Positions 25,153-64,000 of a stretch of 64,000 bases of DNA are shown one piece after another (within the stretch, counting starts at the first letter, position 1; every line of letters begins with the position of its first letter). The DNA is from Daedaleopsis sinensis (taxonomy: Eukaryota; Basidiomycota; Agaricomycetes; Polyporales; Polyporaceae), in assembly GCA_033807695.1 (NCBI GenBank), contig CM066310.1, positions 186,001 through 250,000 of the forward strand, in the 5' to 3' direction. A program made the position numbers and the translations under genes. Below the pieces are notes generated by a model. The model saw nothing but the letters and a program-made list of their open reading frames with translations. It searched no databases and was not told the DNA's origin.

Positions 25153-25164
25153 TTAAAAAAAAAG

Positions 25165-25532
25165 TGTAAGCTGGCCGTCGGGCCAGCGGACACTGGAGTC
25201 TAACACACGAGGGCACGCAGCGGAATAACGAGCAAAAGCTGCGTAGCGTGAGAGGAAACTAAGTAGGGATACAAGCGAGTGAGAACCACAATACGTACCT
25301 GCGTAGCGCGAGAGGAAACTGAAGCGCAACGCAGGGGAGAAGGGGTTTATGTACGTAAATAGTCCAAATACTGAGAAAGCGAGCATGAGTCCGTTCGTCC
25401 AATCCTGTCCGTCCGCCACAGCGGTCCAATCCCGTCCGTCCGCCCGTCCGTCACCTGTCTGTCAACTCTCCGTCATCCGTCTGTCCGGTGCACGTCCGTG
25501 GTCCGAGGAGTGAGTCGTGTGATGGCATTACA
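25165..25532 (-). repeat. 5-prime LTR of the chromovirus
   Basis: 368 bases, partner of 19247-19614. Its last bases on the plus strand lie directly against the HET gene's coding sequence and currently supply that gene's final codons and stop. Confidence 0.96.
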
Positions 25533-35019: not shown

Positions 35020-36071
35020 ACGAGGGTTTATGACGTTGCTCTCTTCATCCTAGGACCTATTGCCATATATCTCAGATTGTATCACATAGCTTATGCTCGG
35101 AGGCTTATACGTGTGTCCCCAGTGATGGCATGTCCTGTGTTAGTATTATATGTATCTCTACGAACGTTGGACTTGACAGAGTAGTATACTGTTTGTGAAT
35201 TCGTCAGGTGCGGTTTCTAGCAACCTGTCACTGCCATCGTCAGTAGATCGACCAAAAGACATCATAATACTCATTCGACAATAGGGCGACGGTCAGTTCC
35301 GGGTGTCGGCCGCCTACTTATTGAGGAGCGTTCAGTGTCCAAGGCAGGGCGCGTGGCCGACTCGGAGACGGAGTCAAGATCTTCCCGTGCATGATGGGTC
35401 CTCTGTCCTGCTTTCCAATTCGATACAGCCGCTCAGTGTACACGCAGGATGCGACACTGGGCCACACTCCGCTAAGCATCTTGATGCCCCCAGTATCCGG
35501 CGATCTTCAAGCTAGTATCACCGTGACACTCGAAGAAAGAGCATCTCGCTCCCACATGGATCTGAGAGCTGGCTGCCCACAGTGCTCGGCACGGCCAAGG
35601 GCAACTGGAAGATGACGCTGAAAGAAGCTCACCGTGTTGTCTTCTGATGGCGGTCGGCCGAAAGACTGCGTTCTTCGAGCCATGGCATTTGTCTCGCTCG
35701 AATGGTCTAGGCCGGCCGGCGCTGCCTCTAGCATTGCATTCGATCCCCATTCTCCGCGAGACGTTGCACTCATTGGTCGACGGTCGCGGAGTGGCACCAT
35801 GCACGCAGACGCGCGGCGAGTCAGGTTCAAGCAAAGTGTTAATCCCGAGTCACGTCTTCGGGATGCTAACCCGTCCCTCCAGTAGCATCTAGTAGCACTC
35901 TGCCAGATGATCGTCAATAACCACCGCTTTACTCGCGAAAGTCTGGACCATGACGTACCTAACAGACTCGTCCAGGGATCTAGGCGTTGTACCTATATAA
36001 GCTGCCTACCTTTCGCCATCTGATCATCGAACCAGACATCTCATCCCATCCTACACCACCAGTCCAGCAAC
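35020..36071. other. Intergenic region upstream of the O-methyltransferase
   Basis: No coding exon recognised. The last 80 bases hold the methyltransferase core promoter. Confidence 0.5.
35994..36000 (+). promoter_or_regulatory. TATA box of the O-methyltransferase gene
   Basis: TATATAA in acctatataagc, 72 bases before the ATG at 36072, a standard spacing with room for a short leader. Confidence 0.6.
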
Positions 36072-36861
36072 ATGTCCTCTCCATTACCTGTCGACGCTCC
36101 CGCACACATCCTCGAGCTGCTCTCCCGGCTCCACAAGCTCTCCCTCGCACAAGAGGCCAAACTCAGAGGCCGCTCATCCTCCGACTCGGACCCATCCCAC
36201 TTTGTCTCCTCCGACTTCTCCCCGACCGAAGGATTGCAGGGGTTCGACGACCTCATGTCCGACAAGTTCATCGCGCTCGACGAGGACAAGAGCCAATTCG
36301 TCTATCAGCTCATCCGTGCCACGGGCGCAACCAACGTCGTCGAGGCCGGCACCAGCTTCGGCGTCAGCACTATCTACCTTGCGCTCGGGGTCGGGCAGAA
36401 CAAGGCCGCCTCTGGGAAGGCGGGCACCGTCATCGCGACCGAGAAGGAGGAACTCAAGGCCGCTCGGGCCAGAGAACACTGGAAGCTATGCGGGGAGAGC
36501 GTAGAGAGGGAGATCGACCTGCGCGTCGGCGATCTGCTGGAGACGTTGAAAGAAGGTGTTCCAGAGGTCGACCTAGTGCTGTTGGACAGTGAGTACTCAC
36601 GGTCGAGAAGTGGCCGAGTGTGTGTTGGCTAACGAACGTTGCACCTGTCCAGTTTGGGCGCCGTTGGCCCTCCCGACCCTCAAGGTCCTGCTGCCGAGGT
36701 TGCGTCCTGGTGCTGTGATTCTGACGGACAATACGGTCACGGGTGCGGAGGGCTACAAGAGCTTTCTCGCGTATTTGCGGGCACCGGAGAGCGGTTTCCA
36801 GAACATGGTGCTGCCCTACACGGGTGGGTTTGAAATGAGTGTCTACTACCCACAGGAGTAG
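36072..36861 (+). CDS. Class I SAM-dependent O-methyltransferase-like protein
   Basis: 241 residues from exons 36072-36588 and 36653-36861 (64-nt intron with a ctaac branch motif). Methyl-transfer enzyme using S-adenosylmethionine. The glycine-rich SAM motif I VVEAGTSFGVSTIYLA lies near residues 94-109, an acidic residue ends the next strand (VIATEKE), and VDLVLLDIW and AVILTDNTV supply the aspartate and DN pair that bind a metal in cation-dependent O-methyltransferases. The size fits the small O-methyltransferase group. The substrate is unknown. It is followed within 100 bases by pseudogene relics on the other strand. Confidence 0.85.
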
Positions 36862-37195: not shown

Positions 37196-37541
37196 TTACT
37201 CGATTCCACGAGGTTCCTCGGCAGGCGTCAAACAAGAACTAGACGTCCTCCCGAATCCCAACGACGTGAGATACACGACCGGTGGAGGGCCTACTACTTA
37301 CGCTAGGTGGCGACGCACCCATCATCATCTCGGGACGCCCTAGGTGCGCCCGGCGAGCACAGCGTGCGACGAGCATCGAGCCCGAGGCTCATGCATTGTG
37401 CAATCGGAGTCCATGTAATTCCAACGCAATGCTGTAACACCGTATACCGTGATGACCACCCTCAGAACGCAAGTCCATCCACCCGAGGGCGGAGAGCAAT
37501 ACCCCATCCCGCACCCGTCTCGGTGTCTCGCTCCTCAGGTC

Positions 37542-38395
37542 TCAGCACTGTTTCCACATCTTGACGCAGTCGACCACCGAGCGGGCGGTCCTCGACGTTC
37601 TGGGGCCACGACACCAGCGATGGTCCACCATGGCACGCATCGCGCGAAGGAGGAGGAACTCACTGAAGCCGCTCATGCTGACGTCGTGCGTCCAGATGTT
37701 GACTGTGTCAAACGTGTCGAAGTTGTCCTCCGTGACCAGGCACAGGTCCCCAACCCGCAGGGTCGTCCGGTACGAGAAGTAGCAGCGCAAGAGACCGCCC
37801 GCGAGGCCAACGAGCACGAGCGCGTACACCATCCTGTGCGAGAGCGCCATGCACGGGTCCTTCACGCCTAGACGAGACTTCTCGATCGCCCCCGTGAGTA
37901 TCGACAAGCGCTTCGACTTCTTGAGGCGGGAGACGGTGAACCGGGGCGAGAGGAGAGGGCCGTCGAGCGCGCGGCCGAGCTGTGGTGCAGCGGCCGTGAG
38001 GGTGTAAACGAGCTACGTGCATGGATGCGCGGGGTTGGAGGGAGCCGATGCTGCTGCATATCCGTCGTCCACTAGCGGAGGGTGGACTAGACACGACAGG
38101 CAGCGCCCTTGCGTGTCGTGTAGACGGAGACGCGGCCGTCGAGGCGCCTGTAGACGCGTGGTCGGGGAGCCCGCTGGAGCTCACGACGTTCGCGTGCTTC
38201 GGAGTAGAGGGCAGGGAGGCGTCGGGGGTCATGAACGTTTCGCGTGGGACGTTATGAGGGCCTAGCGGGGTGAGTCCGTCCCGGGATGAAGAACGTGACG
38301 CCGCGGGGCACGTCAGCCGAGCTACAGACCTGAAGCGGACGGGCGAGACGAAGACGGCGAGGAGGAGGAGGAGGATGGTCGAGCAATGGCTTTAA
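37542..38395 (-). pseudogene. GH16 pseudogene lacking the catalytic exons
   Basis: Strong resemblance, mirror-oriented, to the intact GH16 gene at 52313. It shows a Ser/Pro N-terminus, SSADVPRGV..FFIPGRT, PDASLPSTPK, the membrane helix with MVYALVLVGLAGGLLRCYFS, and CLVTEDNFDTFDTVN ending MSGF. The sequence then jumps straight to the gene's last exon (WPQNVEDRP... KMWKQC and stop at 37542). About 1 kb carrying the EIDIMEARG active site is absent, and several frameshifts disturb the N-terminal part. Confidence 0.85.
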
Positions 38396-42481: not shown

Positions 42482-43760
42482 ATGGCCTCCTCAGCCTCCG
42501 ACAAACCGCTCGTTCTCATCATCGGCGCAACCGGCACGACCGGCAGCAGCATCCTCAACGCCCTCCTCGCAGCAGGGACCTTCGTGAGTGCCAGGGTGTC
42601 GCTAAACTTCCCCTTCCCTAGGCCTCCAGCTCGTCAGTACGAGTACGGCCGAACGCTAACCACGCTCCCCACCCACACCACATTTCCCCCCGGCACCGAC
42701 AGCGCGTGAGCGCGCTGATCCGCCCGCGCTCCCTCGCAAAGCCCGCGGTGGAGAGCCTGCGCGCGCGGGCCGTCGAGATCCGCGCGGGGGACCTCGCGGA
42801 CGGCGTAGAGCGGCTCACGGAGCTGCTAGCCGGGGTCGACGTGTTCGTCAGCGCGGTGTCCGCCATGGCCATCGCGGCGCAGGAGGACCTCGTGCGCGCG
42901 GCCAGGGACGCGGGCGTGCGCAGGTTCGTCCCGTGTGACTTCGGCACGCCGGGGGCGAAGGGTGTCCGCGAGCTCCACGATTCGGTACGTCTCTTACGGC
43001 CTACTCGGACTCCTCTTCGTGCGGGCCAGATGCTGACGCCAGTCGTGTCGTGCCACGGTACGGTATGACAGAAACTCGCGATCCGGGAGTGCATCAAAGC
43101 GCACGGGGTGCCCTACACGTTCATCGACGTCGGCTGGTGGATGCAGCTCTACCTGCCGCTCCCCCTGCGCAGCAGGACTCCGGAACCGATGAAGGCGTTC
43201 ACGTACGTGCTGGTCGGGAGCGGGGAGGCGCGGACGCTCGTGACGGACCGGGAGCACATCGGCGCGTTCGTCGCGCGCATCGTCGCGGACCCGCGCACCC
43301 TGAACAGCGCGGTGCTCGTCTGGGAGGACGAGGTCGCGCAGAGCGACGCGCACGCGATCGGCGAGGACCTCTCGGGGGACGGGGACGCGCTGAAGTCTCG
43401 GCGGGTATATGTAAGTGATCATGCGCGTACACGGCGCGGATCGCCGACTGACTATGTAGGGGGTACGTACGTACGCACGTATAGGTGACCCCGGAGTATC
43501 TGCTGGCAGCCGCGGCGGCCGGGCAGGAGAAAGTGAAGGCGGACCCGTCGAGCCCCGCGCTGCACGCGGTCGTCTCGATGAACGAGTACTTCTACAGCAT
43601 GTTCGCGCTGCAGGAGAACACGCTGGAGAACGCGAGGCGGCTTGGGTACCTCGACGTGCGGGCGCTGTATCCAGACATCGCTCCGCTGTCCTTCAGGGAG
43701 TACGCGAAGAGCTTCTACAGCGTCGAGGACCCTGGCGCTGTGATCTACGGCACGTCGTAG
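42482..43760 (+). CDS. NmrA-like / isoflavone-reductase-like NAD(P)-binding oxidoreductase
   Basis: 332 residues from four exons (42482-42583, 42703-42984, 43072-43410, 43485-43760; introns 119, 87, 74 nt). An atypical SDR: the N-terminal Rossmann motif IIGATGTTGSSIL (GxxGxxG) lies at residues 12-24. GVDVFVSAVSAMAI follows where these proteins close the cofactor pocket, then RFVPCDFGTP, and PYTFIDVGWW in the position of the family's substrate side. The NmrA family includes both redox-sensing regulators without catalysis and true reductases of aromatic compounds; sequence alone does not decide. The start at 42482 (MASSASDKP) is the first ATG before the fold. An AT-rich stretch about 75 bases upstream could serve as TATA element. 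Confidence 0.88.
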
Positions 43761-44349: not shown

Positions 44350-46951
44350 TCCTGCGCATGCTGCGTGCACCGCGCTACCTTAGCCAACCGAATTCTTCCT
44401 GCGCTGATCATGAGCTGTGCCCGCGGAGTCGCGCGGAGTCGGAGTCGCGCACCTCGGTCGGCGCACGGACTCGCACTCGCACTCGGAGCAGGCTGCAGGG
44501 ACTCGGCGCAGGGAAGGCGGAGACCTCCTGCGCACGCGCACGCGCGAGACGATGTATCCTCGAGCGAGCATGGCGTGCATGGATGCAGATGCCCGGCAGC
44601 CGTGCTCCCCGACATGCCCGTGCCCGAGAGTTTTCACCAAGTACCGCCAGGCCGGTGGCGGGGGTGCGGCTTCGAGACGCGGGCCGCTCCAAGTCCTGGC
44701 ATGCGGCATGTAGCATGTAGCATGTCCCAGACCGCGGCGTCTGGCCAGGATCTGTCGACGGGCTTCGATGTCCATCGACATCAATTGTGAGGATGCTTGT
44801 TGCAGCGCGAGTCGTGCGTCGTGCGCGTCGACGTCGACGTCCATGGAAATGTCCGTGTCACCACGCTGCGGAGGCGGAGGCAATCGAATTCCGGATACGG
44901 GCACGCGGACACCTTGCGAGCGAGATGCGGACGACGACGTCACAACGGCGCTGGTAAGTATGTGGCGTCGTGGAGCTGTGATTTCTCTGTACGTCGAACG
45001 TCGGACGTTGAGTATTGCGTCGCGAGCCAAAAGGGGACGGAGCGCGCACCATGACCCGTTCTCGGCGCGCCTTGCGCCGTGCAGACATCGGCGAAAATCG
45101 ATGCAGGATGTCTTCCTTCATTGAGAGGGTCTTCCGGCGCGCGCTGCTCCGACTCTCGGGACGTCGTATTTCCTAGACATCCCAGCGGCAGGGCCTCGTG
45201 TTGACGGGTCTTCCAGGCGACTCGCAATCGATGTCCCAATGGGGGTTGACGTCGACGTTGCATCAATGAATGCGCCGCGATGCGCAGTGGAGCTCTGGAG
45301 ACGCGAGCTGAGTTACCGAGGGCCGCCGTCCGAGTCTGTGGAGAGCGCGCGCCACTGGCAGTACTCGATGAACGGGAACCTAACATAACCGCTTCCGCCT
45401 CCGCCTCGCCTCGCGCCGATCGCATCCGAGTCTCCTCCACGGTAAGCATGATGCATATGCTACTGCGCTAAACGCAACACACGCACCTCGAGGATCAGGC
45501 TGGTGGCGCGATACAGCTACCACTACCGCTCTATCGCAGCAAGTCGGAACCTGGCGCAGTGCACTCGAACGCCACATCCACGTCCGCACGTCGAGTGCGC
45601 GTCGCGCAAGGTCCCGAATACGGGCGTGCGGCATTCTAGGGGAGCTGGGAGCTGATCGTGAGTTTGACGGGGGCCCCGCCCGAAGCCGGTGCGGACTACG
45701 TACTTCAAGTTCGACTTCATCAATCGGCATCCTAGTGGAGATTCGGTGGCCGCCCGGGCCGCCCGGGCATCGCGATCATCCCGACGTATATGCGCTTGTG
45801 GGCTGCGCGGGCTCTGCATCGGTGGCGGAGGTGCGCCACGCAACGGCTGCCAGTGGGCGGGATACGGCGCATGCATGCATTTAAATTTGGTTATGACGAG
45901 AGAATTCGCAGAGCCATATGCATATGGAGCCGTCGACATCAATTCTGCCTGTCGACACCTGCGATAGCAGCTGGAAGGGAAGGGAAGGACGAGGCACGCA
46001 GCCTGGTCGCCGGTCGCCGGTCGACGGTCCCTGGCAGCTTGTTCGGATTCGTCTGTCGTCTAGATCTATGCATGCGTGCCATCAGCCTCGAGCAATCCCT
46101 ACGCCCCGTCCGAGTCGGGTGCTTACCGGGGAGAGTTCTGGAATAGATCACGCCATGTACATACGTCCCGCGCGCAACGCGCGACGCGTGTCGTGCACGT
46201 TCGAACGTCCGCGTTGCCGTGCGTTCGTGCGGGACCCACGAATCCTCCGAGGCCCCGAGGGGCGTTCAGTATACGCAGGCACGCGCGCTTGGCCCCTCCC
46301 AGTCGGGGGACCAGTACTAGTCTGGGTGCGATCTGCGATCTGCGATGTCGGAGGAGAGCCTGGTGTGGTTCCGGTGGTTGTGGCGGCATAGGCTCTGGCG
46401 TAGGCTGTCACGACGATCTTATCTTGAGCTTGACCGGCTGTCCGACTCGGAGTGCGAATATCCCTCCCTTCCATCCGCGCTGCCATGGCCATGGCCATTG
46501 CGTCCGGTAGGGTCAATGCCCGACTCAGGATGATGGCAGTTGACGCGTTGACGTTGAATGCAGACTGCCAGATACCCAGATACCCAGAGTACAGCGTTCG
46601 TCGGCGGCCCGCCCAGCTCGTATCATATCGCAGCGCCTGAGCGGCGCCGGTCTTTGTAGCTGCGGCCTAACCCCGTACACCGTACGTATACACTTCTATG
46701 GGCCGGCCGAGGTTGTTATCGCTATCGCCCTCGCCCTCGCCACAGTACCGCATTCGAAGAAGACCGTCCGTCCGTTAACGTTTAAAATTTGACCTTGACC
46801 TTGAACGCGAACGTGCGGAGTGTTCCAAGAAGTGTCCGTGTCCCGCGCGCGGGGGTTTGCCAGTGACGCGGTCAGAATACGTATACGTAGACGGACGTGC
46901 GGTTGCGCTCTCGGGAGCGCTTTGTGGTTGCCAGTGCTGGGGAGCGTCGTG

Positions 46952-47091
46952 TCACGTAGGCAGCAGCATCGCGCGAGTCGCCGCGGGAAGGACTCCACGG
47001 AGTCGTAGCCTGATCGAGATTCGTCACGTAGGCAGTAGCATCGCGCGAGTCGTCGCGGGAAGCGACGGAGTCGTAGCCTGATCGAGATTCG
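46952..47091. repeat. Tandem pair of ~70-bp units in the left arm
   Basis: Units 46952-47023 and 47024-47091 both begin tcacgtaggcag and end cctgatcgagattcg. Their complement resembles the ctcgatcaggct...cgcggcgactcgcg segment in both copies of the right arm's 1-kb tandem duplication. Confidence 0.9.
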
Positions 47092-48543
47092 GATGGTTGT
47101 GTACGCTGGCCTGAGGCCGCTCGGTCGGTACAGCCCGTACGGCCGTATCTCCAGACTCGGCTGGAGGATATTATCAGTTAGGAGGCGAACTTGCGATTGA
47201 AGATTACCAGGCACTTATCATAAACGATCTGCAGATTCCTGCCGACCGAGCAGAGACTTCCTTGACCTGTGCAGGGTATGCAGTCCGCTTGCGAGCAGTG
47301 GGTGATGTGGTGGATGCCTCGCGATCGGGGTGAGTTGACAGCTACACTTAACGCCAGCCTGGGGAACCTCGCAGGCGTCGCATCAGACCTGCGACCACGA
47401 GACGAGACAATCACTGCAAGTGCTGACTTACCGAGTCCTTGGAGACTTCTAAGGTGCGTCCGATATCCGACATATGCCGCAACAGCCGGGACGGAGCTGT
47501 ACGCGTACGGAGTGTGAAGTGACTTAAGTCGACTCGGAGTGTGTTCGAATTATTCTGTCGAAGAACGTTAACACCCAACTACGGCCTAAGACGAGTGGAA
47601 GCGTACGGTCGATCGGGCGGGAGGGCTACGTCCTGCCTGTAGGCTGTCAGCGGTAGGGGGTGCACGTGGGCCGGGGATGTACACGCATGACGTCTGCGCC
47701 TTCGGAAGTTCCTCAGCAGATTCCCCAAGGCTGCACGCGCACGCCAGTCAGTCAGGGTGCCGAGGTAGTACATAGAATTCCAGTCTCCCCCAGGGGGCCC
47801 GCAAGAGACGACAGCGGCCGCCGATCGCGTGAGGCTTGAAGATGTAATTTGAATTTGAAAATTTGAAGCGTGCGGTGGCTAGGCTCCGGATCCGGATCCG
47901 GAAGGTTGTCGACAAGGATGAGACGACTCGATATACACTCGCTCGGCCGCGGGATCAGATCCACACACTGGCCATGGAGGAGTGGAGCGCTGCTGCTGTT
48001 GCGGCCGTTGCGGGGCCGGGCTACGCGAGTGGCTGCTAATGCATAATGCATAACGCGAGTGGGCCGTGCGCGGCCTGTGCCCTGCATCCGGAGCCTGTTT
48101 GGCGTGTGCTTCCGAGTCTTCCCGCCCGACGTCGACGTCGTGTTCCCGACCGAGCGCGTGCGCACGAGCATGCCAGAGCCAGCTGAGCCTGAGTACCCCA
48201 GAGTGCCCCAGAGTGCCAGAACGTGTGTGCGCCCGTGCCTGAAGCTGAAGCAGAAGACGAAGACGTGAAGTTTCGAAAGCGTGCAGTCGAAGGGACCTCG
48301 TTACTCGGCTCGTTGCGTGTGAGCTCGACGGGCCACATGGGTATGGGCATGGGTACGGGTAGGCACGGGCATGGGCATGGGTACGGGTAGCAGTGCTGTG
48401 TGCAGAGAACTGGGAGCGGGCGGCCGCTCTGGAGACTGGCTGAGCCTCAGCTCGTGATACAGGCAGGCCACCGGGACCGCCACCAGAACGTTCAACAAAA
48501 CAAACGGTGCGCACTACCTGCACCCGCGGGTCAGTCAGAGCGA

Positions 48544-48544
48544 G

Positions 48545-48579
<35 letters not shown>
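48544..48579. repeat. Hexanucleotide repeat (gacgca)n
   Basis: Six near-perfect units in the left palindrome arm. Confidence 0.9.
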
Positions 48580-48580
<1 letters not shown>

Positions 48581-49860
48581 CTGGCCACCGTTGTCGATGT
48601 CGAGACGTCGACAATCGATGGCTCCGGTCCCCTGGCCTCGGTGTTGACGCGACTTCGGGGTCTGATATGCCAGTGGATATCGATGTAAGCGGATGATGAC
48701 GATGACGCCCAGTCGGTATCTTCTCATGCATACATGCGCGGGAGAAGAATGCCACATAGCAGGTAGTGTGGCCTATAGCCTATGGGCCATCGGACGACGC
48801 ACCTGCTAGTGCTCAGGGGGGCTGGAAAGGGCACGGGTAGATGCCGAGCGTCCGGGTCCCGACGGTGCGATGTCGGTCGGAACAGACGATTGCAACATCA
48901 TCTCTGGTAGCAGGCGGGCTCGACTGAGCGGTCCTTCAAGTTGGTAGTCGTAGTGAGTATTAGTGGTACATCGACGGCGGGTCGCTCACCTGCTCAGATA
49001 TCAGAGCGTGAAGATCAGTAGTACAACAGCAAGCATAAGCATAAACATAGAAGGGACTTGAAGAACAAACCCAGCCTCGACCGTTCGGCTCGTCCGTCCG
49101 CACTGCCATGCTAGTGACGATTCCACTCACCTGGCTGCAGGCCTTCTACCTATTCAGCACATCACACGCGCATCGCGCGATAGCCGCAATTCCACGCGCG
49201 AATCGCACATACGCAGGAACACCCCGCCAGAGCAGGTCCGCTTCCTCCCATGATCCCGCCGCGCTAGCGCTTCTTGTGAACGTTGGAAAGTTGAGCGCGC
49301 GCGCGCGCGACAAGGCGGCCGGCGAGCTTCGTGGGCAGTGGGTACTGAGTACTGAGCCTCTCTAGTGTTCTATTGATCAGCGAGTCCCGTTCGAGATAGC
49401 GTGGATTGTGCCCTTTCTGGGGAGAAAGCTGTTGTGGTACCGTGCCAGCCATGGACGCCGTTCGAATTCGACGCCCTGACGGTGGGCCTTCGAGTCATCC
49501 TGCGTGTCGAGTCATCCTGCCTGAGTAGTCAGGGGACCGGCTGTGCAAGGAAGCTGAACGAACCTACTCTCCTCGCATGGCAAGGGGTATACTTACTTCA
49601 AGTCTCAGTCAAAGTCGTTGTCAGTGGGCGTCCGGACTCTGGATGAAGTTGCGCGCTAAAGGACGTGGCGGCGAGCGCTATGATGCCACGTGTGCGCCAC
49701 AATGACTCCGCTCACGGCAGTTTTCGTGGTTTGTCCTGTGCGCATCTTGTTCCGGACAGTGACACTGTGAATGTATGCTGCCTCTGTCTGCCATTCCGTC
49801 CGAACGGTGCGTGCAAGACGTCGACCCGGTCATCATCTACGGAGATGGGAAGCCTCGCAA

Positions 49861-52312
49861 GTCGCCAGATGAGAAGCTGACAGGTTCGCAGGGCAGCTAC
49901 GTGTCACGGCTGCCGTTGCGGCGGAGCGGAGAAACTCTCCATCTACGAGATTCCGGTTAAGAGGTTAGCTGGACAGTAGAGCAAGTCGAGCACTTACGCG
50001 CGGTAGCTAGATAGTCGAGCGAGTCGACGGACGAGTCGTACGTAGCCGAGCAAGTAGTTCTGTAATAGGTAGCATAGACGCCCACCAATCAATCCCGGAT
50101 TCCCTTACCTTCGTACCGCCATCAGCAAGTCGAACAGCGAGCTCCTCCCGCGGTCTCCTCTCCCTTTGCGACCTGCGGCTGTCTGAGTCTGTCTATAGAC
50201 ATACCCCCGAGCCTGTCTGCGACCCCTCGAACCGTCTACATCCTCCCGAAAGCCCCTGCGAGTCGCAATCACGTCGGTAAGCGCTCGTCGACGTGACAGC
50301 GCGAGCCTCTCTTCTCCCTCCCCCTTTGAGTCGAATCCCCCGCAACCACCGTAGAGACATTTGGCCGTGCAAACTGCGCGTGTAGACACGCTCACCGGAC
50401 GCGTCGAGACCACCAGACGAAGGAGAAGGCACCCCCTCCTCCTCGGATAGGCGCCCCTCGAGCGCGACACGTCGAACCTCGCGAGCCGGTGTCCAGCCTT
50501 GCGGAGCTCCAGTGGACGCGTGTAGAGCACCGATGCAAACATTGAACAGGTTGTGGATCAGTACGCCGTTACCTTTCATTCTTATTCTTACGATAGAGCA
50601 ACTTCCTACATCCCATCCTCCTCGTTTACCCCAATCCCTTCACAACAGCACATACTAGCCCCATCGCACCTTTAGACCAGTGGTTCTATCGTTACGTACA
50701 TTTCATATCTATTGGTTAGATACCGCGACCGTTACACTACGTAACGCAAAGAACTCGGGTCAGGCCGACAACGTTAACGTTCTCGATAACATGCGCGCTC
50801 GGAAGCCTCTTGTCACGCAATACCTGACGCAAGACCTGTAGCGAACAGCGACCCGACGTCCCGCGCGCTGAGAACGGATTTGAACATGTAAGCACGAACC
50901 AACTAGCTCTGTGCGACTCGACGCAGCTGATTTCCCGAAGTCTTCGTCTTCCTCGCGGAGATAGGAGGCTGGCTGCTGCTGCTGGACACCCTCAGTACTT
51001 CTCGCAGGATGCCGCCGGCATGACGGCACCCGTTCCTGCTCATGCGTCTGCAAGTACCTTCTCCCCGGCCCTCGTACGTCCGCGGCGCTGTCACAGCCCG
51101 TCTCGTCGAAGTGGCGATCGCTTCTATGCTCCTACCAGAAGCACCTATTACGCCCCACACACCATCCATTGTGTATTATGCATGCATTACGCCCCACACG
51201 GTATGTCTCCGATCGCTATACGGGGAATCACAGTTAGGCTCACTGCAAACGTGCTCCGCCTGGGCCATACACGACGCGGCTCGCACGGCGGCCGTTCAGC
51301 GGGCTCGGAAAGTGCAGCGACGCACACGCCTCGGGCAGGCCGCGTCTCGAGTGGGCAGCCCCGTTGCTCGCTGGAGAGACGTCGGGACGCGCGGCGCTGC
51401 CCGTTGTCTCTGAATGGGCGGATGTTCCCTTGCGCTCGAGCAGCGTGCATGACAAAGGGGCGGGCCGCAGAGAAGACGGGGGCGAGGGCAGGTGAGAGTG
51501 CTAGTTTGACGGCGTTTGCGGGACGGTTCTCACCGATGGCCCGTGAATTTCCCCCAGCTGAACGCGTACGTTGCCCGGGATCTGAGGGCTGGAACGAGCT
51601 CGCTAGATCTGCAGCAGGTGCGACTCGCCGTGAACCGCCAGGAGGGCTGTCCGTCAAGTACTCTCGCTCGGAGCACAGCTCCGGGTCGCTGATAGATCGC
51701 ACGGACGAGAGGTTCGCACAGTTACGAAAGCATGCTTGAGCTGTTTGAACAGCGCGCATCCTGCTGAGGCCCTGTTCGCGGCACTCGTATCTCTCAGCGC
51801 TCCTATGAACTTAAGGGTCCAAGATAGGGCACGTGGAATACCAAGCATCATCTCGTCGTCGCGCGCGCAGCCCGAGGCATGGAAAGTAAGCTTAGGCCTC
51901 AGTAGGCCTCATGGTGGACTCGAACACTTCCAACTATCATTAACCGCCAATAATAGGCCCGATAACGCGTACGTCAAGATATGTGGTCTATCCGGCTGAC
52001 GACCGCACATCGACAGGCGACCGCAAGAAGCGCACAGGCGCCGTTCTGGGCAAAGGCGGTGCGTCGGGGACCCTGGCCGCAGTCAGTCAGTGGCACGTCC
52101 GACAAGTCACTCCCTGCAGTCACTCATGTTCCTGACAGTATTCTTTGCGGGAAATCCTGCTGCTTTCTCAGGGTGCGCCACCCACTCCCGGCCTTCGCGC
52201 TTGAAGCACTCTCTGTCGATGCGAACTTGTTAAAGCCCTCGCTCGCCCGCAGCCAACGCAGCGCATCCCCAGCCCCGACCTCTGCTCGCACCACCAGGCC
52301 TCTGTCAGCACC
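49861..52312. other. Left part of the palindrome spacer, upstream of GH16
   Basis: No convincing gene. A short inverted pair (cgttacgta at 50692 and tacgtaacg at 50740) can form a weak hairpin. I saw no clear mirrored partner in 54.1-56.8 kb, but a diverged one could be missed by eye. The last few hundred bases must contain the GH16 promoter; no obvious TATA box. Confidence 0.4.
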
Positions 52313-54104
52313 ATGGCCGACCTCAAGCCCTCGACCTCGGCTTCGTCCACGAGCCCCTCGCCCTCCTCGTCCCGCCCATCTACCTCGGGGAGCAGCTCGG
52401 CGGACGCACCTCGCGGCGTGTTCTTCATCCCGGACCGGACGCGCCCCGCTACCCCCGATGACATCCCACGCGACCCGTTCAGGACCCCCGACGCCTCCCT
52501 CCCCTCTACGCCAAAGCCCGCGAGCGTCGTGAGCTTCAGCGGGCACGCCGACCACGGCGCGTTCAGACGCCTCGACAGCCGCGTCTCCGTCCAGTCCGCC
52601 CTCCGCCAGTCGACGGCGGATATGCAGGACGGCGCCCCGCCCTTGCACAAACGCAACTCGTTCATGCCCCCGCGGGCGCTGCACCACAGCACGACCGCGC
52701 ACTCGACCGCCCTCCCGCGCATGCCCACCCTCTCCCGCCTCAAGAAGCCGATGCGCTCGACGAAGCTCGCGGGCGCGATCGACAAACCGTGGCTGGACGT
52801 GAAGGAGCCGCGCATGGCGCTCGCGTACTGGATGGTGTACGTGGTCGCGTTCGCCGGCCTCGCGGGCGGGCTCCTACGCTGCTACTTCTCGTACAAGACG
52901 ACGTTCCGGGTCACGAACCTGTGCCTCGTCATGGAGGACAACTTCGATACGTTCGACACCGTCAACACCTGGACGCACGACGTCAGCATGAGCGGCTTCG
53001 GGTGAGTTTCTTGCTATTCGCGCGATTGTGTGCCGCTGACGGCCGCGACAGCAACCAGGAGTTCGAGATGACGACCGCGTCCGCGAACAACTCGTTCGTG
53101 CGCGACGGCCACCTGTACCTCGTCCCGACGCTGACCTCGGACGTGATCGGGTACGACGCCGTGATCGGGGCGCACCCGACGATCTTCAACCTCACTGGCT
53201 GCACGGACGCGAACGCGACGAACTGCGGCGCGGCGTCGAACGCGTCCGCCAAGGCCGTCATCCCCCCGGTCATGAGCGCGCGCATCCACACACGCGGGCA
53301 CTACGCGCTGCGCTACGGCCGCGTCGAGATCCGCGCGAAGATCCCGCACGGCGACTGGCTGTGGCCCGCGCTGTGGATGCTGCCCGTCGAGGACAAGTAC
53401 GGGCCGTGGCCGCGGTCGGGCGAGATCGACATCATGGAGGCGCGCGGGAACGGTATCGAGTACGGCGCGCAGTGAGTGCCCTTCCTGCTTCCTTTCGCAT
53501 GCACGCGTGCTGACGGCCGCTGTGCGCAGGGGCGTGGACTACGTGCGGAGCGCGCTGAACTGGGGCCCGTTCCCGTGGCTGAACGGGGTGGGCACGACGT
53601 TCGGGTGGTGGACGAACCGGCGGCAGACGTACGCAGACAAGTTCCACACGTTCGCGCTCGAGTGGGACGCGGACTTCCTGCGCGTGTTCGTCGACTCGCG
53701 GCTGTCGTACACGCTCTTCGTGCGCTTCAACGAGCCGTTCTTCCAGCGCGGGCACTTCCCCGCCGTCGTCGCGAACGGGAGCGACTTCGTGACGCTCGAG
53801 GACCCGTGGGCGGGCGCGGCGGCGCACAACGTCGCGCCGTTCGACCAGGAGTTCTACCTCATCATGAACGTCGCCGTGGGGGGCACGAGCGGGTGGTTCC
53901 CGGACCGCGTCGGGGACAAGCCGTGGCTCGACGGCTCGCTCAGTGAGTGCTCGCACTATGTTTGTGTTCTGGTGCTAACAGTTGTTGGCAGCTGCGATGA
54001 CGGACTTTGCGAACGCGCAGAAACAGTGGGCGCCGTCGTGGCCGCAGAACATCGAGGACCGCGCGCTCGTCATCGACTCGGTCAAAATGTGGAAGCAGTG
54101 CTGA
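52313..54104 (+). CDS. Glycoside hydrolase family 16 protein, type II membrane anchored
   Basis: 544 residues from four exons (52313-53001, 53052-53471, 53530-53942, 53992-54104; introns 50, 58, 49 nt). A Ser/Pro-rich cytosolic N-terminus is followed by one membrane helix at about residues 168-188 (MALAYWMVYVVAFAGLAGG) and a lumenal or extracellular GH16 domain. The catalytic motif EIDIMEARGN gives E354 as nucleophile, D356, and E359 as acid/base. GH16 enzymes cut or transfer beta-1,3/1,4-glucans. The N-terminal anchor layout is shared with fungal proteins linked to cell-wall beta-glucan assembly, so a wall role is inferred. NLTG and NATN-type sites fit secretion-pathway glycosylation. Codon choice is strongly GC-ended, unlike the surrounding palindrome spacer. 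A catalytic-core-deleted relative lies at 37542-38395. Confidence 0.93.
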
Positions 54105-56829
54105 GCAGTGCGACGCGGAGGTCACTGAGCTCGGGGCGGACGGGTCTTGTGTTCTGGTAATGGTCATCATGGTATACCTCGCGTCGGCATCGCACGGAGT
54201 ATTGAATAATGCAATCGAGGGCGGGTACTATTACTCTATGGTAACAGTATAGACATGTCTGTGGCTCTCTGCAGTGCGTCCATGGTGGGTTCTTGCTACG
54301 CGTGGCTTACATCAGTTATGATTTATCGGCTCTTGCTATTGGCTTATATTAATTAATATGCGTCGCAGACCGACGGCCTGGACTCTGATCGCAGATCCTG
54401 TCCGTCCCCACTGCACATCTTGTTATTCACACAACTGAGGTGTCTCGTCCCCGAAGTCATCCAAAGATGAAGCTCGCGCAGAACGGCGCAAGGCTGCATG
54501 TTCGTCCGAGACGTCGACGAACGTCGCATCTTCCTGCTACTGGACCCCCTTAGAGCGCCGCAATACAGTCACTACTTCAAGCTTGGCGCAGACGTCGACA
54601 CTACTTGCAACGCGTCATCAATGAAGCCACGAGTATGACCGTGTGTACGACGCGCACGCAGAGCGGATCGGCGGGTCCGCGGGGCCAGCCTCGCGCACAC
54701 GACGCGACAAGCTCAAGGCAGGCCTGCAGGATGCGGACTCGGAGATGCACACTCAGACTGCACAGCTACGTATACAGTACAGGTACAGCCGCACGTTAAC
54801 GAACGCGCGCACTCCGCTCCGAGCTCCTGGGCTGGCACAGCACCCGCCGTCGCACCCAGACACCGGCCCCGAGACCCGCGCGGGTCTCGAAGCACTGCTA
54901 GTCCCGCTAGTAGTGCGGCTGCCGCATACGGATGCGCGACCCCCTGCGCCCGCACTCCCCGCGCGGCGCCAGCTTGAACGTGGAGGCGAAGGCTGACAAC
55001 TGACAACTGACAGCTGAGTGGTAAGTGCTGAACGTTGAACGTTGAACGTTGGACTGCTGCCTGCCTCTCCGAGGCGGTAATCGATCATGGGCCTGCGCAC
55101 CCGCCTACACCCACACAGCGCAGGGGCCAGCGTCAGCTGAGAACTCTGATCCTCAGGCCTGGGGTGCGGTACACTGACTCGGGCCTGGATTTCGTCCCAG
55201 GGCTAGCGGACTCCGTGGGGTGCGGTCGAGCGGTCCACGCCGCGTTATTGTCGACGCCCGACACGGACCCGCTCTTTCGGAGGCCGGGATCAGCTTGTCC
55301 CACTACCAGTACCCGGTATGCACTCATGAAGTGAAGGTGTCGTCCAATGTAACGTTCAAGGTCGTTGCGCAGGCTCGCCCTGCACCTGTGGGCGTACATG
55401 CGCTGAGTGCTGATCGATATCGTCGATCTCCTCATCCTCAGTGGGCACCGCAGTGGGTCCCGGTGCCTGAGCCCGACTGGAGCGTGATGGGAATAGCGTT
55501 GAGCATGTACATTGTCAGATGCCGTCTCCCCGACCCGAGCAGATGTGCATAGCCTGGCGATGGAGTGTCACAAATGCACAAGTAGATAGCACACGCAACT
55601 TACCCCTCTTTTCAGTCCGACGTTCGGCCTGTCACTGAATTTTCGCAGCTGACAGTCGCCGCCGGATGCACGCCTAGGCACGGACAATATCGATGCATCT
55701 CGAGCTCGCGGCCTGCGGTCGAGCGTGCGGGTTCGAGACCGTGCCAGTTGTCGTGGTGTGTTTGATACCCGGGACGAGACATCCACGATCGCGATCACGC
55801 CAGAGGCGACGCTCGAGCACGTATCACGCCGGGGCCCGTGCTCCTATGACTGTCAGTGTGCACACACTGCAGGGCATGTGTGAGAGACGACGCACGACGT
55901 ACGCGTGCAATGTCGTGGAGAGCTGGACCGGCCCACCGGGAACGCGCCTTACTTGCGCGTGCAGTTCCATTTGCGGCGCACGTGCTCGTCGAAGTGTCAA
56001 GTGACGTGCTGTGGGTCTCTGGAGGAGCGGACCGTCCGTGCGCGGAGAAAGGGACGGAATCCTCGTGCGACGCGACAGCACCTGCTCGAGCCGTATTGCA
56101 GAGCACCGTCGTTCGAGGGTCATTGCAACCCCGGGGTTTGCGCGGGTAACGGCCAGGGAGTCACTCCGAGCTGGGTCCTATGTGCTGCATCCGCGAATCC
56201 GTCCCCGGCACAGGCGCTTAAGCGTCAGTCAGGCGGAAACATGTACCTGCGCGAACAATCAGGTTGAACCCGGACGACGGAGAATGCCAGCTAGCCGACG
56301 GCCTCAAAGGGTAGACGTCCACAGATCCCGGTTAAGATCCAGTCGAAGCACCCCCAGCGAGTTCAACAGTTGACATTGAATTAGACGGGGTACACGGACC
56401 ATCCACGGCGGGCTAGAAGAACACCGGATGGAATCGAACGCAAACTCAGCTTGAAGTACTCAAATTCCCTGATCATCTATTAGCACATCAGCGTAGTGGC
56501 ATCGGGACTTCCTGATCTGGTACTGACCGTAGGCTGCGGACCGACTGAGCTTGCACAGTACCCAAGGCTGGAACACTCGCCAGGCGTTGCGATAGCTCGT
56601 CGGCCCAGAGGAGGGGGAGGAGAAGGAGGAGGAAGAGAAGTGAAAGTAAAGTGTCCGAGGTAGCGATGGACTGGATGGCCAAGTACAGACATCATTCCAG
56701 TGGGCCACGGCGTGATACATGGCTTCATGACGTACGAACGTCATGTCCTGGATGAGTTGAGTGCACATGCATGGAAAAGATACGGGATCTCAGCCTCTCG
56801 ACAGTGTCGACACCTGGTCGACACACATA
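54105..56829. other. Right part of the palindrome spacer, downstream of GH16
   Basis: No gene recognised. It contains short tandem duplications such as gacaact repeats (54995-55013) and aacgttg repeated near 55029-55051. A B-box-like ggttcgag at 55730 is not part of a tRNA fold. Confidence 0.4.
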
Positions 56830-58156
56830 GCCATGCGCACTTGATGCGCACAGAACAAAAGTTGGCAAACCACGAAAACTGCCGTGAGGAGTCATTGTGG
56901 CGTGGCGCACACGTGGCAAGCTAGCGCTCATAGCGTGACGCGTCACGACACCGCCGCCACGTACTTTCAAGTTGGCGCGCATCCACCAGTGCCAGAGCGC
57001 GAACGACTTTGAAAAGATGATAGCTCTGACTCTGAGCTTGGCTGTAGCTATCACGGTGCGGAGGAGACATCATCTTTGATGCGTTCTACTGGCGGCTGGT
57101 GAGTATCAACTGCACAGCCGATCGAACTTCCGGTGCCTGCTCATGTTCTCCAGCACGCAGAACTTGAACGACGACTCGGGTCACTCGGCGGAGGACCGTC
57201 GCGGCGTCGAACGTCGAACAGCCCTATCCTCAGCTCGGAAAGCGCACATTCTCGGCTACGTCGGAACGGGTATCGCTGATCGATGGTCGATGGTCACTGA
57301 AGGCCTTGTATGGTGTGCTCAGTGCCCACTGCCCACTGCCCATTGCCAACGAAGCTCGCCGGTCGCCTTGTCGCGCGGGCGTTCAAAAAACGTTCATGAG
57401 AAGTAGCTCGGCACACCGGTACCTCGCACGGCGGGTACATAGGAGGAAGTGCTCTTGCTCGGGCTGGGGAGCCCCTGCGGTTGCGCGTCTCGCGCGTGCA
57501 GTCGCAGCGACGCACGTGTAAGGTGATGAATTCGGATGAGGACCTGCAGTCCGGTGAGTGGTATATTCACTATGGCGATGCGGACAGTCGATTCCAGTTG
57601 GTGCTGAGGTTGTTCTTCCTCCGGTGTTTATGCTTATGTTGTATGAGATCAGGTCTTCCAGCTTTGAGCTCTGACTCTGAGCAGGTGAGCGACCCGGCGA
57701 CATACCGTTCTGTAGCGGCGGCGACACTGATATTAACTACGACCAGGGACCGCTAAGTCGCGCCCGCCTGCTAGATGTTGCCATCGTCTGCGCCTTCCGA
57801 CATCGCGCCGTCGGGATCCGTACGTTCGGATCCCGTTGTACTCTTCCTAGCGGGCCCCCTGAGCAGGTGCGTCAGGCTACACGAGAGGCCACCCACCCTC
57901 GCCGCCCTCTCTCCGTTCTCAGTTCTCAGCTCCCAGTTCTCAGCACACGGTACACGGCACTCGTACCCATAGCCATGCCCCTGTGGCCACGCACCGCGCA
58001 TCGATCACTGCGACTTCACGATTCCAGGCACGCACCCGCTCGCCCTGGATCTCGTTGACATCGCCGGACACGGGACGCAGGCGGTTTCTTTACTCGTGCA
58101 GCCTTGAACTCAAACACACGCCAAACAGGCTCCGACGCACCGTCCGCCCGTCCACC

Positions 58157-58189
58157 CGACCCCGACCCCGACCCCGGCCCCGACCCCGC
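58157..58189. repeat. Hexanucleotide repeat (cgaccc)n
   Basis: About five units, one with a substitution, in the right arm. Confidence 0.85.
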
Positions 58190-58475
58190 AACGATCAATG
58201 TTCAACGTTCAGCAGCAGCAACAGTAGCAACACTTCTGCCCGGTCCGCTTCGTCCGCGTCTGATCTCGAGTGGGTATACATCCGAGTCGTATCATTGCCG
58301 AGTCACCGCAAGCATCCGCGATGTAATCTCAATTCGAAAGCCGAAGCTAAAGCTCCCCTGCTCGTGCTCGTGCTCGTAATCAGCTGGCAGGCACCCCAGG
58401 TACCGGAGGCCGTCTACCTCGGCACCCTAGGCCTAGCTGGCGTGAGGAACGCGCAGACGTCACGAATGCTCCTTA

Positions 58476-58498
58476 CGCACGCACGCACGCACGCACGT
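58476..58498. repeat. Tetranucleotide repeat (acgc)n
   Basis: Five to six perfect units in the right arm. Confidence 0.9.
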
Positions 58499-59511
58499 CT
58501 GCGCGCCCGGCACGCCCGCTTCAGTATCCCGCTCTGCCGCACGCGAACCGTCACTAGTACTCGCCACGGGATGCTCGGTATGTGCATCGGTCACGGTCAC
58601 GGCGATGTGCCTCTGTGTTCGCGCGGGGCAGAAGTGCAGAAGTGCAGAAGTGCAGAAGGGCAGAAGGGCAGAAGGCAGAAGGTGCGTCCTATCCTGCCAT
58701 GCCATGGCCAGGGGCCGTCCAATCCGAACCTGGCACGGTGTCTTCAAGTTCCGTCTCCCAGCGACGTCGCGGTCTCTGAACTTCTCTGCTCTGAAGGTCC
58801 GCCGTGCTCCTTCTCGACTCGTAAATAGTCACTACGCATACCATTTCGGTGTCCGTCATCGGGAATCCGACTCGGACAGAACGATTCCGAGTCGAACACG
58901 CTGCAAGTTGCTCGGCTCTACCCGGGATGCTGATGCATGTGGCGTTGCAGCACACGTCCTCCTCCCCTGTAGCTGATGATCAGAAGTCTCCACTCCAAGC
59001 ACTCGGCGAGTCACTAGTCGGTATTTGCTGCCCGATACCGCAGCCTGAGGAATTGGATGGTTCGACGCCTGCAACCCCTGGCGTCGAGTGTGCCAGTGAC
59101 AGCCACGACTCAAGGTACCCGAGGCATCCCCCACATCCACATCACACCACCCACTAATAGGCTCGCAAGTAGCACGAACCGTAACAGTACTGGGCCTGCC
59201 TGAGTCGCGGGAGTCCGAGTCTCTATCAGGGCTGCCCAATTGACCTCCCGGCCGAAAGTCGTCGAGATGCCACCGGTGAGTGCCGAGGCTGATGACTCGG
59301 ATGATGCTGCGCTAAGACTACTTACCTGCTCTTCCTTGCGTCCCCCTCCTCCCCTCTTCCACTGCACTGTCTGCCGCGCATATGAGATGTTGGGAGATAG
59401 AAGATGCTCTCGACTCTCACTGAATTAGGTGCATTGCTGAGCGTTGGGCGTCGACAGCAACTTTGGGGCTTCAAGCTTCAAGCTCGACCTGACCGCGTTT
59501 GGATGACCACC

Positions 59512-61670
59512 GTGACTGCCACCCAAGCGGCATCTCGCGGCACTGGCATCTCGACGACTTCTCGTCAGTCGACTGCGCATGCATCTCGCAACGGCCCTCA
59601 GGCTCAAGAATCCAATCGCAAGAATCGAGCAGCCCAATTCGTATTCGTATTCGGTGGGCAGGGACGTGGACGTGGTCGGTGCCCGTACCAGTCGCGGTCC
59701 GATCTGCGTTCAAGTTCTCAGGCCGATCCCGAGTCTGCAGATGCGGGCCACACCGAGCGACCAGCCTGCCAGCATACGCATACACAACATCAACATTGAA
59801 CACAGCTAGTACTACCACAGACTACAGTATCACATGGCATGGATCGCGACTCGGATGGTCCCGACTCTCGATCAGGCTCGCGCATTCCTTCCCGCGGCGA
59901 CTCGCGGGACGCTACTGCGTCCGACACGGCCGCGAAGCACTCCCAAGAGAGCAACGGGCCCATGGCCACTGGCATGTCTTCGTCTTCGTCTTCGTCTTCG
60001 TCTTCGTCAGGCTGATCTCCTCGAACTACCGCGCAGCACATCTGCCGGCATCCTTGAGCTTTTGCTTCTTCCTCTTCCCCTGCCACAGTTGCGCACTCGG
60101 ACTCGGGCGGCGATAGCGAAAGCGACAGCACCGCGGACAGAACCGTTAGCCCGCGGCACGCCCAGCTCCTGAGGCCTGAGGCCTGAGTCCGAGTCATTGT
60201 ATGCTGCTGCTGCTGCTCGTCCCGAACTTGCGTTTGCAGACACACACCGAACGACCGGAGGCTTTCAACTGGCAGCGTCCACAACGACAACGACAACGAC
60301 AACGTCGCCACCGCTATTCATACATATACATATCTCGATCAAGGTCCGACGTTCCGAATTCCATCCCGCGGCGACAGCCTCCGGATCCGTCACACGACGC
60401 TCGACGCTCGCCATCCCCGAGGCAGATAGCCAAGCACTAAGCACTAAGCACTCCGAGTCCTAGGGAGCGACCGCGACCGCACCGGCGCGTCCTCACTGGC
60501 ATCCTGAATCCTGAATCCTGATCGCGCCGATCCCGATCCGTGACTGCCACCCAAGCCAAGCGGCGTCTCAACGACGTTAACGTTTCGTCAGTCGACTGCG
60601 CATGCATCTGCATCTCGCAGCGGCCCTCAGCCCTCAGGCTCAAGAATTCAATCGCAAGAACTGAGTACTGAGCAGCCCAATTCGTATTCGTATTCGGTAT
60701 TCGGTGGGCAGGGATGTGGTCGTGGTCGGGGCCCGTGCCAGTACCAGTAGCGGTCGCGGTCCGATCTGCGTTCAAGTTCAAGTTCCTCCTGATCTATATC
60801 TACTTTGCTGCTTCAAGTTCTCAGGCTGATCCCGAGTCTGCAGATGCGGGCCACACCGAGCGACCAGCCTGCCAGCATACGCATACGCATACACAACATC
60901 AACATTGAACACAGCTAGTACTACCACAGACTACAGACTGCAGTATCACATGGCATGGATCGCGACGTCGACTCGGATGGTCCCGACTCCGACTCTCGAT
61001 CAGGCTCGCACATTCCTTCCCGCGGCGACTCGCGGCCGCGAAGCAGCACCGGGCCCATGGCCACTGGCATGTCTTCGTCGTCGTCTTCGTCTTCGTCTTC
61101 GCCTTCGTCTTCGTCTTCGTCAGGCTGATCTCCTCGAACCTCCGCGCGCACATCTGCCGGCATCCGTGCATCCTTGCATCTACCGGCAGCGCGTCGGACG
61201 TTCAACGTTCAGGGACTCGGACGTTCAGGGACTCGGACGTTCCTTCTTCCTCTTCCCCTGCCACAGCTGCGCACTCGGACTCGGGCGACGATAGCGAAAG
61301 CGAAAGTGATAGCACCGCGGACAGAACCGTCAGCCCGCGGCACGGCACGCCCAGCTCCTGGCTCCTGGCTCCTGGCTCCTGGCTCCTGGGTACTGAATCC
61401 GAGTCATTGTATGCTGCTGCTGCTGCCCGTCCCGAACGCTCACTCTGAGTTTGCGTTTGCAGACACATACGGAGGCTTTCCACCGGCAGCGTCCACAACG
61501 TCGCCACCGCTATTCATATGGAGTCGATCAAGGTACGACGTTCCTTCCCGCGGCGACTCGGTGCCTCCGAGTCCGTCACACGACGCTCGACGCTCGCCAA
61601 CCCCTGGCAACGATAGCTAAACAAGCACTCCCAAGTGAGCAACCGCACGTCCTCATCCTGATCGCGCCGA
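59512..61670. repeat. Tandem duplication of a ~1.02-kb unit in the right arm
   Basis: Copy 1 about 59512-60536, copy 2 about 60537-61670; the landmark gtcagtcgactgcgcatgca recurs at 59568 and 60590. Long near-identical runs are shared, for example around cgagtctgcagatgcgggcc and the gaacacagctagtactacca segment. The copies differ mainly by small in-place duplications and deletions rather than substitutions. Confidence 0.92.
59976..60008. repeat. Hexanucleotide repeat (cttcgt)n
   Basis: About five units; an expanded version with interruptions occurs at the matching place of the second tandem copy (61070-61121). Confidence 0.9.
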
Positions 61671-63571
61671 ACGGCATCCTTGCCTTGCATCCAGCGCGTT
61701 CGACCGTTCAAGGTGCTTCGAGTTGAGCTTCCCTGCAGCTGGGCAGCGGCGGCGACTCGGATAGCGAGAACACCTCGGACAGCGCGCGCGACCTCAAAAG
61801 ACCGACGTCTACGTCCGCCGACACCGTGGTCCGCGGCGCGATACGAGCTGCGCGAGCCGCCGATTTGACAGTCTTCGTGCATCGTGCAACGTGCAACGTG
61901 CAACGTTCACGTTCAGCTGCTATAATCAAGATTTATAATCCTCCGGCACTCCGAGTCGCCCTGCCGGACGCACCGCGACCGTGACCAGGCGCGCGTGACC
62001 TCGTATTGAAGGTGCCGGTGAAGGAGGCGACTCGCGCACTCCGGACAAGATATCGATGCTGCATATGGCAAGATCGTCCAGAAAGCCTAAGGCTATATAT
62101 ATAGCTACGTATACGCCCAGCACATCCTCATCCTCATCTCAGATCGCACCCACAGAAGCGCGTGGGTGCGTATACTGAACGCCGCTCGGGCCCACTGGCA
62201 GCCGCACACCGAATCCCGATATCTGTATTTCCCGCGCAGACGTGCACCGGCACGCATCGCGTCGCGCGCAGGACGATGCATGCGCACGTACGGCGGCAGG
62301 CACGCGCACGTACGCTGTTCCAGAGCTCTCCCCTCCGACCCTGGTAAGCACCCGATCGGACGGGGCGCGAGGAATGCTCCGAGAGGCCGACGGCACGTAC
62401 GCATGCACAGACGAAGAAGCGTAAGCTGCCAGCTGGGCCATGCGGCGGTACCTCGTCCTTCCCTTCAGCTGGTGTCGACCGGCAGAATCGCTATCGGTGG
62501 ACCTCTCGTCATAATCAAACCTAAATGCACCCGCCCTGGCCGTACTCGTCCCGCCCACCCCGGCCGTTGCGTGGCGTGCCTCTGCCACCGATGCGTCCCC
62601 CGCGCAGTACAGTATACGTATACGTATCACTCCAAGATGGCCGGACACTGCAGTGTGACCGCGCGCGCCCAATCTCCACTGGGGCTTGATGAATTCGACG
62701 TGCCAGTGCCCGCACCGGCTTCGGCTTCGGGCCCGCGTCAAACTCGAGATCAACCCCCGTAGAACGCCGTAGTACGCCCGTATTCGGGACCTTGCGCGAC
62801 GCGCACTCGACGTGCGGACGTAATATGTACCCTCCTCAGCTGCCATGGATCATTGCAGTAATAGTGGCTAGGGAGGGGGCGCGTGCCACCAGACCAATCA
62901 TCCGTGCGTGTGTTTCATTTGCAAGGCGCAGGATGCAGGAGCATCTCACCCTGGCAGGGAGGAGATGCGATCGCGAGACGATTACGTTAGGCTCGCCGAG
63001 TACTGGCCACGTTCTCTCCACACTCGGTAACTCTCGCGTCTCCACTGCGCATAGAGGCGCATTCATCGATTCGACCTACATCAGGACATCGATACGTATA
63101 CGGTATACGTGCCTAGCCCGACACACGTCAACACGAGACTCTGCAGCTGGCGGGCCGCGACAGCTTGAGGAAGCACCACCGTGACAGCCCGGGGAGCGGC
63201 GGGGGACAGTGCGCCGGATCCAAGACCCTCTCGCGATCAACCAAGGAAGACGGAGGGAGTCGAGTCGGGGTCGAGGTCCGCGCTCCACCCCCTTTGGGAC
63301 GGTCGCGCCGCGCCGCGATCCCTGATGCGTAGCAGTGACATCACAGCTCATCGCAGCGTGACGGCGCGCAGCGCCACATGCCCGCGTCGTCGTCGTCCTC
63401 AGCCCGCAAGGTTCCGGCGACCGCGTACCCATGCCCATGCCCATATCCATATCCATATCCGGAACTCGATTGCCTTCGCAGCAGTGTTGACATTCGCATG
63501 GACAGCTCAGACGCTAGCGCTCGGGCCCTGTTCCGCGTCGTAGCCCCCGGCCGCGGGCCAGCGCTGCAGTC

Positions 63572-63593
63572 AACGTTAACGTTAACGTTAACA
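63572..63593. repeat. Hexanucleotide repeat (gttaac)n
   Basis: Over three units near the outer end of the right arm. The left-arm partner region has no comparable run, so it arose after the arms separated. Confidence 0.9.
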
Positions 63594-64000
63594 AGCATGC
63601 ATACACGCGCGGAAGCCTGCGCGCCGTCACCGATCCTGACAGACTCGGACGCCGCGCACTGCGACCAGCGGCGGCGCGTCTACGCGCCGCACCAATCCAC
63701 CCGCCAGCCGCCAGCCGCCAGCCGCCACCCGCACCGTGACTGGCTCTCGGGCACGTCGGGGAGGACGCCCGCCGGGCATATGCATGCCGCCGAGTTCATG
63801 CATCATGCATAATGCATTACGCATCCCCTGCAGTAGATGCCGCGCAGGGAGGCGTTTGCGTTTCCTGCGCCGACCGACGTCCGTGAGTTCGCGCGCATCG
63901 GCGATCGCCATTCGCGACGCACAAGTCAGGAAGATTACGGGTTAAGTACTCGTAATGTTCCCTCGCTGTCGGACTCGCAGCAGTGCGCATGCACGCGTGC

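Follow-up and report, generated by a model that had tools for sequence, protein, structure and literature searches.

A stretch of 64,000 nucleotides of the Daedaleopsis sinensis genome (here the window; bases 186001-250000 of contig C11) contains an intact GH16 gene flanked by two long arms that are related to each other in inverted orientation. Arm L occupies positions 44583-49733 (plus strand) and arm R positions 56866-63785 (minus strand), and both are non-coding. The spacer gene, GH16b (52751-54104, plus strand), has four coding segments and aligned stop-free to residues 1-398 of a GH16 protein of Daedaleopsis nitida, in keeping with an earlier note on this DNA which had described it as healthy. 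Its best protein relative, 83% identical across 49% of the query, was from D. nitida, and the next named matches were from Trametes, Earliella, Lentinus and Ganoderma. The start of the contig (base 1) is a telomere with approximately 27 copies of ACCCTA, and the window lies 186-250 kb from it.

Comparison of arm L with arm R gave 13 high-scoring segment pairs (HSPs; 963 bits) on the minus strand and none on the plus strand, while 46 control comparisons, made on both strands with 23 pieces of the region (7.2 kb each), gave no HSPs. Inverted self-matches in the window included 45580-45902/62821-62503, 48810-49357/57865-57317 and 49673-49733/56929-56866, and the longest block under gap-tolerant scoring paired 44893-46286 with 63430-62158 at 60.5% identity counting gaps. 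Most ungapped block pairs (29 of 39) lay on one colinear inverted path; of the others, 6 fell where arm R is repeated internally and 4 were off the path. This confirmed the claim that blocks recur between the arms in reverse order and orientation, and the self-comparison that had been proposed as a check showed inverted colinear matches between 44.58-49.73 and 63.79-56.87 kb.

Aligned columns were 74.4% identical (2172 columns in 4 HSPs of at least 120 columns, with 115 gaps). The earlier estimate of 70-80% likeness in blocks holds for these columns, but identity is just 60-70% once gaps are counted. The middle of the arms (47.16-48.30 kb) matched weakly: its global score was 17, and five control draws, of which some repeat one place, scored -20.5 to -77. 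Lenient gaps inflate percentages here, so only scores were used. An end-to-end MAFFT alignment of the arms, which misaligned the inner half, was left out. Detectable homology stops near 44.58/63.79 kb, where the edges fade with no sharp end, and arm R does not visibly run on beyond the window as had been supposed. A duplication extending over 38.3-44.6 kb was rejected, as the sole match there was a known 38-bp block. The arms were also rejected as part of a GH16 family unit, since the stretches that separate each arm from the gene (49.70-52.76 and 56.93-54.10 kb) have only the arm-end block in common. Because the arms are 26% diverged, assembly collapse or chimera at this pair is unlikely.

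We searched the 51.6 Mb genome (24 contigs) using arm L 44893-46286, arm L 48810-49860 and the whole of arm R as queries; arm L 46.29-48.81 kb was not a query. The arm matches were the pair itself, a repeat resembling a miniature inverted-repeat transposable element (MITE) and simple repeats. Apart from the MITE-like insertion and simple repeats, no further arm copy was present among the first-look candidates, to which scoring was confined and which weaker copies could escape. Arms scattered genome-wide as small repeats, which the earlier note had named as speaking against a single inverted repeat, were not seen in these searches. Its suggestion of an ancient inverted segmental duplication is supported by the inverted homology together with this apparent restriction to one pair. 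The two copies are each at least 1 kb, lie in opposite orientation and are not a high-copy dispersed repeat, as in a segmental duplication. However, the usual human definition asks for identity of 90% or more, and at the identity of their aligned columns the arms are an ancient, decayed example at most.

The same searches bear on the idea that the arms are long terminal inverted repeats of a very large transposable element that carries GH16 as cargo. A gene flanked by inverted arms fits such an element. However, no other genomic copies were found, the arms are too diverged, and sharp ends were not seen. In addition, comparison of 36 spacer open reading frames (ORFs; at least 90 aa) with Pfam identified GH16 only, and no transposase or integrase. 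Taken with these results, the element is extremely improbable. No tested result favored a structural locus, the remaining option of the earlier note. A repeat-flanked fungal centromere has near-identical arms around a gene-free core, unlike the present locus, in which the arms are 74% identical and the spacer carries an intact GH16 gene.

Coding-signal windows above 12 were absent from both arms, among 91 windows in arm L and 119 in arm R, in agreement with the earlier statement that the arms have no conserved frame. The corresponding values in gene controls were 55% of 31 windows in GH16b and 63% of 27 in GH16c, a GH16 relative to the right of the window (82.05-83.45 kb, minus strand), although this contrast is flattered by a training set of 1611 codons that includes both genes. 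The arms could in principle be two decayed copies of a protein-coding gene, as they contain long ORFs, which occur by chance in this G+C-rich DNA, and some conserved donor-like motifs. Besides the lack of coding signal, several results argue against this. Comparison of 80 arm ORFs (at least 90 aa) with Pfam gave only four single weak matches (E 0.0045 to 0.044), the longest ORFs on the outward strands (57863-58825, plus; 47882-48772, minus) had no relative at E 0.001 among approximately 8000 scored candidates each, and gap lengths between the arms were multiples of three in only 27 of 115 cases. Mismatch spacing was uninformative, as the coding GH16b/GH16c control likewise lacked a period of three. 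Given the coding signal and the protein searches, coding arms were rejected, and descent from two copies of a gene is very unlikely. The ratio of observed to expected CpG was 1.19 in both arms, and there is therefore no sign of methylation decay.

Three ungapped blocks were strongly conserved between the arms, with 48/48, 23/23 and 21/21 identical positions. The longest, at 45580-45627 (plus strand), is identical to its partner at 62774-62821 (minus strand). Within 3 mismatches, the two arm sites were the only places for its 30-bp core, which had no match in viral contigs; phage records also gave no match. A conserved block at the inner end of arm L (49684-49733, plus strand; partner 56918-56866) contains CACGTG and TGACTC. 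The three strongly conserved blocks would favor a reading of the arms as regulatory paralogs, or as non-coding units whose transcripts are spliced. Such units would be read outward from conserved promoter-like blocks at the inner end of each arm and would have been kept for this role, which is compatible with an origin by duplication. Also in favor of this reading, splice-donor motifs are conserved between the arms at three aligned positions. These lie at 49130, 48989 and 46126 on the minus strand of arm L and at 57554, 57685 and 62344 on the plus strand of arm R. The splice-donor motif was aligned in 3 of 4 cases, which permuted patterns reached in 1 of 150, and the GGTRAG pattern in 3 of 3, which permuted patterns reached in 0 of 119. 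However, the motif was noticed first and tested afterwards, a looser donor pattern was unremarkable (6 of 10, compared with a permuted 95th percentile of 5), and one GGTRAG is conserved on the opposite strand too. None of six RNA folds around conserved blocks exceeded its shuffles in stability (z 0.04 to 2.00), and the window had no Rfam match at the gathering score; a structured RNA was rejected on these grounds. The conserved donor motifs, as sequence patterns, hint weakly at outward transcription, and we consider it unlikely that the arms were kept as such units.

Arm R is the longer arm, and at least part of its extra length comes from a tandem duplication inside the arm together with a MITE-like insertion. 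The two tandem copies lie at 59488-60445 and 60517-61629. The dispersed MITE-like insertion (approximately 59253-59600) has 17-bp perfect inverted ends (59256-59272/59544-59560) and approximately 22 other genomic places, with 73-77% identity in the better matches, and has no match in arm L. Arm L contains two copies of a 72-bp tandem unit (46951-47091).

The arms lie in a subtelomeric, gene-family-rich stretch that is rich in inverted duplications. There are three GH16 copies locally, and the pairs GH16a/GH16b and GH16b/GH16c are each in opposite orientation. GH16a (37509-38392, minus strand) is a broken relative of GH16b in inverted orientation; approximately 1 kb with the catalytic middle is lost, and its remaining ends are approximately 20 bp apart. 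A second inverted pair, of approximately 12 kb (65418-77403/111088-99240), lies just beyond the right edge of the window and carries a GT2 glycosyltransferase gene (PF13632). Its outer parts are 62-65% and its inner part 82% identical including gaps, with a step near 71.3 kb. Coding-signal windows above 12 were absent from the outer parts, among 122 windows at 64-71.3 kb and 95 windows at 105.4-111 kb. Part of this pair has a third, direct copy at 93739-97548, and the GT2-bearing block is thus present in three copies. Since there are several inverted duplications in the neighborhood, the arm pair is one of several and less singular.

We conclude that the arms are likely to be intergenic DNA that underwent an old, local segmental duplication in inverted orientation and has since decayed, and not an element. 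A stretch of at least 5 kb would have been copied in reverse onto the other side of the GH16 gene. The most plausible routes are backward template switching while a break was repaired, and an inversion of the 7-kb spacer through staggered breaks that would have left its filled-in ends as arms. Both copies would then have decayed by substitutions and especially by small insertions and deletions, with arm R additionally gaining its tandem duplication and MITE-like insertion. The arms are explicable without function, though conservation in a few blocks exceeds what a uniform rate would give.

Both routes are described for inverted duplications in PMC7584159. If the arms are specifically the ends left by a staggered-break inversion, the GH16b block would be inverted relative to its ancestor, and an inverted duplicated pair around a spacer is the pattern which that paper describes. 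However, the arms, at 5-7 kb, are long for filled-in overhangs and exceed those considered there, where up to 3 kb of single-stranded DNA is named and long unwinding is questioned. This route on its own appears unlikely. PMC7584159 also treats the inverted Attacin pair of Drosophila subobscura as a local inverted segmental duplication. Like the arms, the Attacin copies as presented there are inverted and nearby, include flanking non-coding DNA and lie in a region with further rearrangements. The present arms differ in being non-coding and approximately 74% identical in aligned columns, and in having the gene copies outside them.

Three points weigh against an origin by local duplication. Polarity, age and mechanism rest on the locus of this one genome. 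The control for local duplications, in which 0 inverted and 0 direct pairs were detected, is one 60-kb stretch only, on C1, another chromosome. Finally, at a uniform 74.4% identity approximately 0.0015 blocks such as the 48/48 block are expected over 2172 columns. The observed block is far above this rate, and part of the arms is therefore constrained or gene-converted.

The arms also contain an excess of short exact tandem duplications. Relative to a second-order Markov model, period-6 duplications were approximately 20-fold in excess, at 47.2 per 10 kb in arm L (2.3 expected) and 55.8 in arm R (2.6 expected). Period-7 duplications reached 12.7 per 10 kb in arm L (0.7 expected) and 29.3 in arm R (0.8 expected), and the excess peaked at period 6, then 7; at period 4 the observed and expected values per 10 kb were 67.1 and 33.2 in arm L and 30.7 and 35.8 in arm R. 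Densities per 10 kb at periods 6 and 7 were 8.6 and 2.9 in the spacer and 7.2 and 1.6 in 19 random 3-kb samples. With neighboring runs counted once, there were 35 clusters in arm L and 55 in arm R, and the best period was 6 or 7 in 26 of 35, 42 of 55 and, in the spacer, 8 of 21. Copy number was near three in 12 of 35 clusters and near six in one in arm L, and near three in 13 of 55 and higher in 8 in arm R. The clusters with more than two copies fit slippage, and the many near two copies fit either slippage or break fill-in.

Period 6-8 runs in the arms numbered 98, of which 14 could be compared with the other arm and 84 could not. Among the comparable runs 12 of 14 were private to one arm, and the 2 scored as shared were one neighboring pair with different units. 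The microduplications therefore seem to post-date the duplication of the arms. The alignment of the two tandem copies within arm R had 27 gaps of 3-40 nt. Six of these gaps were exact tandem duplications of 5-7 bp, compared with 1.5 expected, and all 6 lay in the second copy (60517-61629). A looser count gave 12 compared with 5.1 expected. These counts shift with alignment settings: for this pair of copies one setting gave 36 substitutions and 47 gaps, and another gave 54 substitutions and 35 gaps. Weighing against a simple reading of the microduplications, exact duplications account for only 1 of 50 and 2 of 20 gaps between the arms, probably because older ones have decayed.

Similar microduplication densities were detected at 84-91 kb, a stretch without coding signal, and at -51 to -48 kb, with lesser rises elsewhere. 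Neither of these two stretches was homologous to the arms by BLAST. A general subtelomere effect is not supported, as 0-1 duplications were present at each of periods 6, 7 and 8 in three samples of 4 kb taken at 200 kb of other chromosomes. We tentatively raise the possibility that a distinct local mutational process in the arm tract keeps making tandem duplications of approximately 6-7 bp. It might act through fill-in and rejoining of staggered breaks with 6-7-nt overhangs, or through slippage loops that evade repair. In their local short repeats, several of which have at least three copies, the arms resemble microsatellite or cryptically simple DNA, which arises by slippage. They differ from it in that most clusters are approximately two copies of unrelated units, and in that periods 6-7 dominate over 4-5. 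The de novo duplications attributed to topoisomerase II in PMC11477040 (yeast top2 mutants and human ID17) are likewise short tandem duplications without a long pre-existing array. However, those are 2-4 nt, sometimes 5, in length, whereas periods 6 and 7 dominate here, and that mechanism is therefore mismatched by length. Our literature searches, which covered open-licence papers only, turned up no description of a fungal signature of 6-7-bp duplications.

Other features of the region were also recorded. NmrA-like gene fragments with coding signal lie directly left of arm L (42622-43757, plus strand; PF05368 on two ORFs, E 7e-13 and 1e-4), and an O-methyltransferase-like ORF is present at 36024-36629 (PF01596, E 5.5e-7). 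A Ty3/gypsy-type element with a chromodomain occupies 19246-25532 and contains an open frame of 1666 aa (19647-24647). Its long terminal repeats (19246-19614 and 25164-25532) are 98.1% identical, and the element is therefore a young insertion. Further leftward there are more inverted pairs of 64-85% identity (694-3182 and 9930-8059; -23.7 to -1.9 kb and 2.0-8.7 kb), some of which are probably transposable elements. At window coordinates 112-116 and 134-144 kb, G+C was approximately 44-47% and CpG observed/expected 0.52-0.58, compared with approximately 1.0-1.2 elsewhere, which looks like methylation or decay resembling repeat-induced point mutation.

Taken alone, the inverted pair adds one more old rearrangement to a subtelomeric region. 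It matters more as a record of intergenic decay, in which two unselected-looking copies have accumulated insertions, deletions and substitutions, together with the excess of 6-7-bp duplications. If a local process of the kind we raise is indeed at work, a fungal genome would here carry a duplication signature that is both local and length-specific, and the inverted pair would be its natural record, with the private duplications counting events since the arms split.

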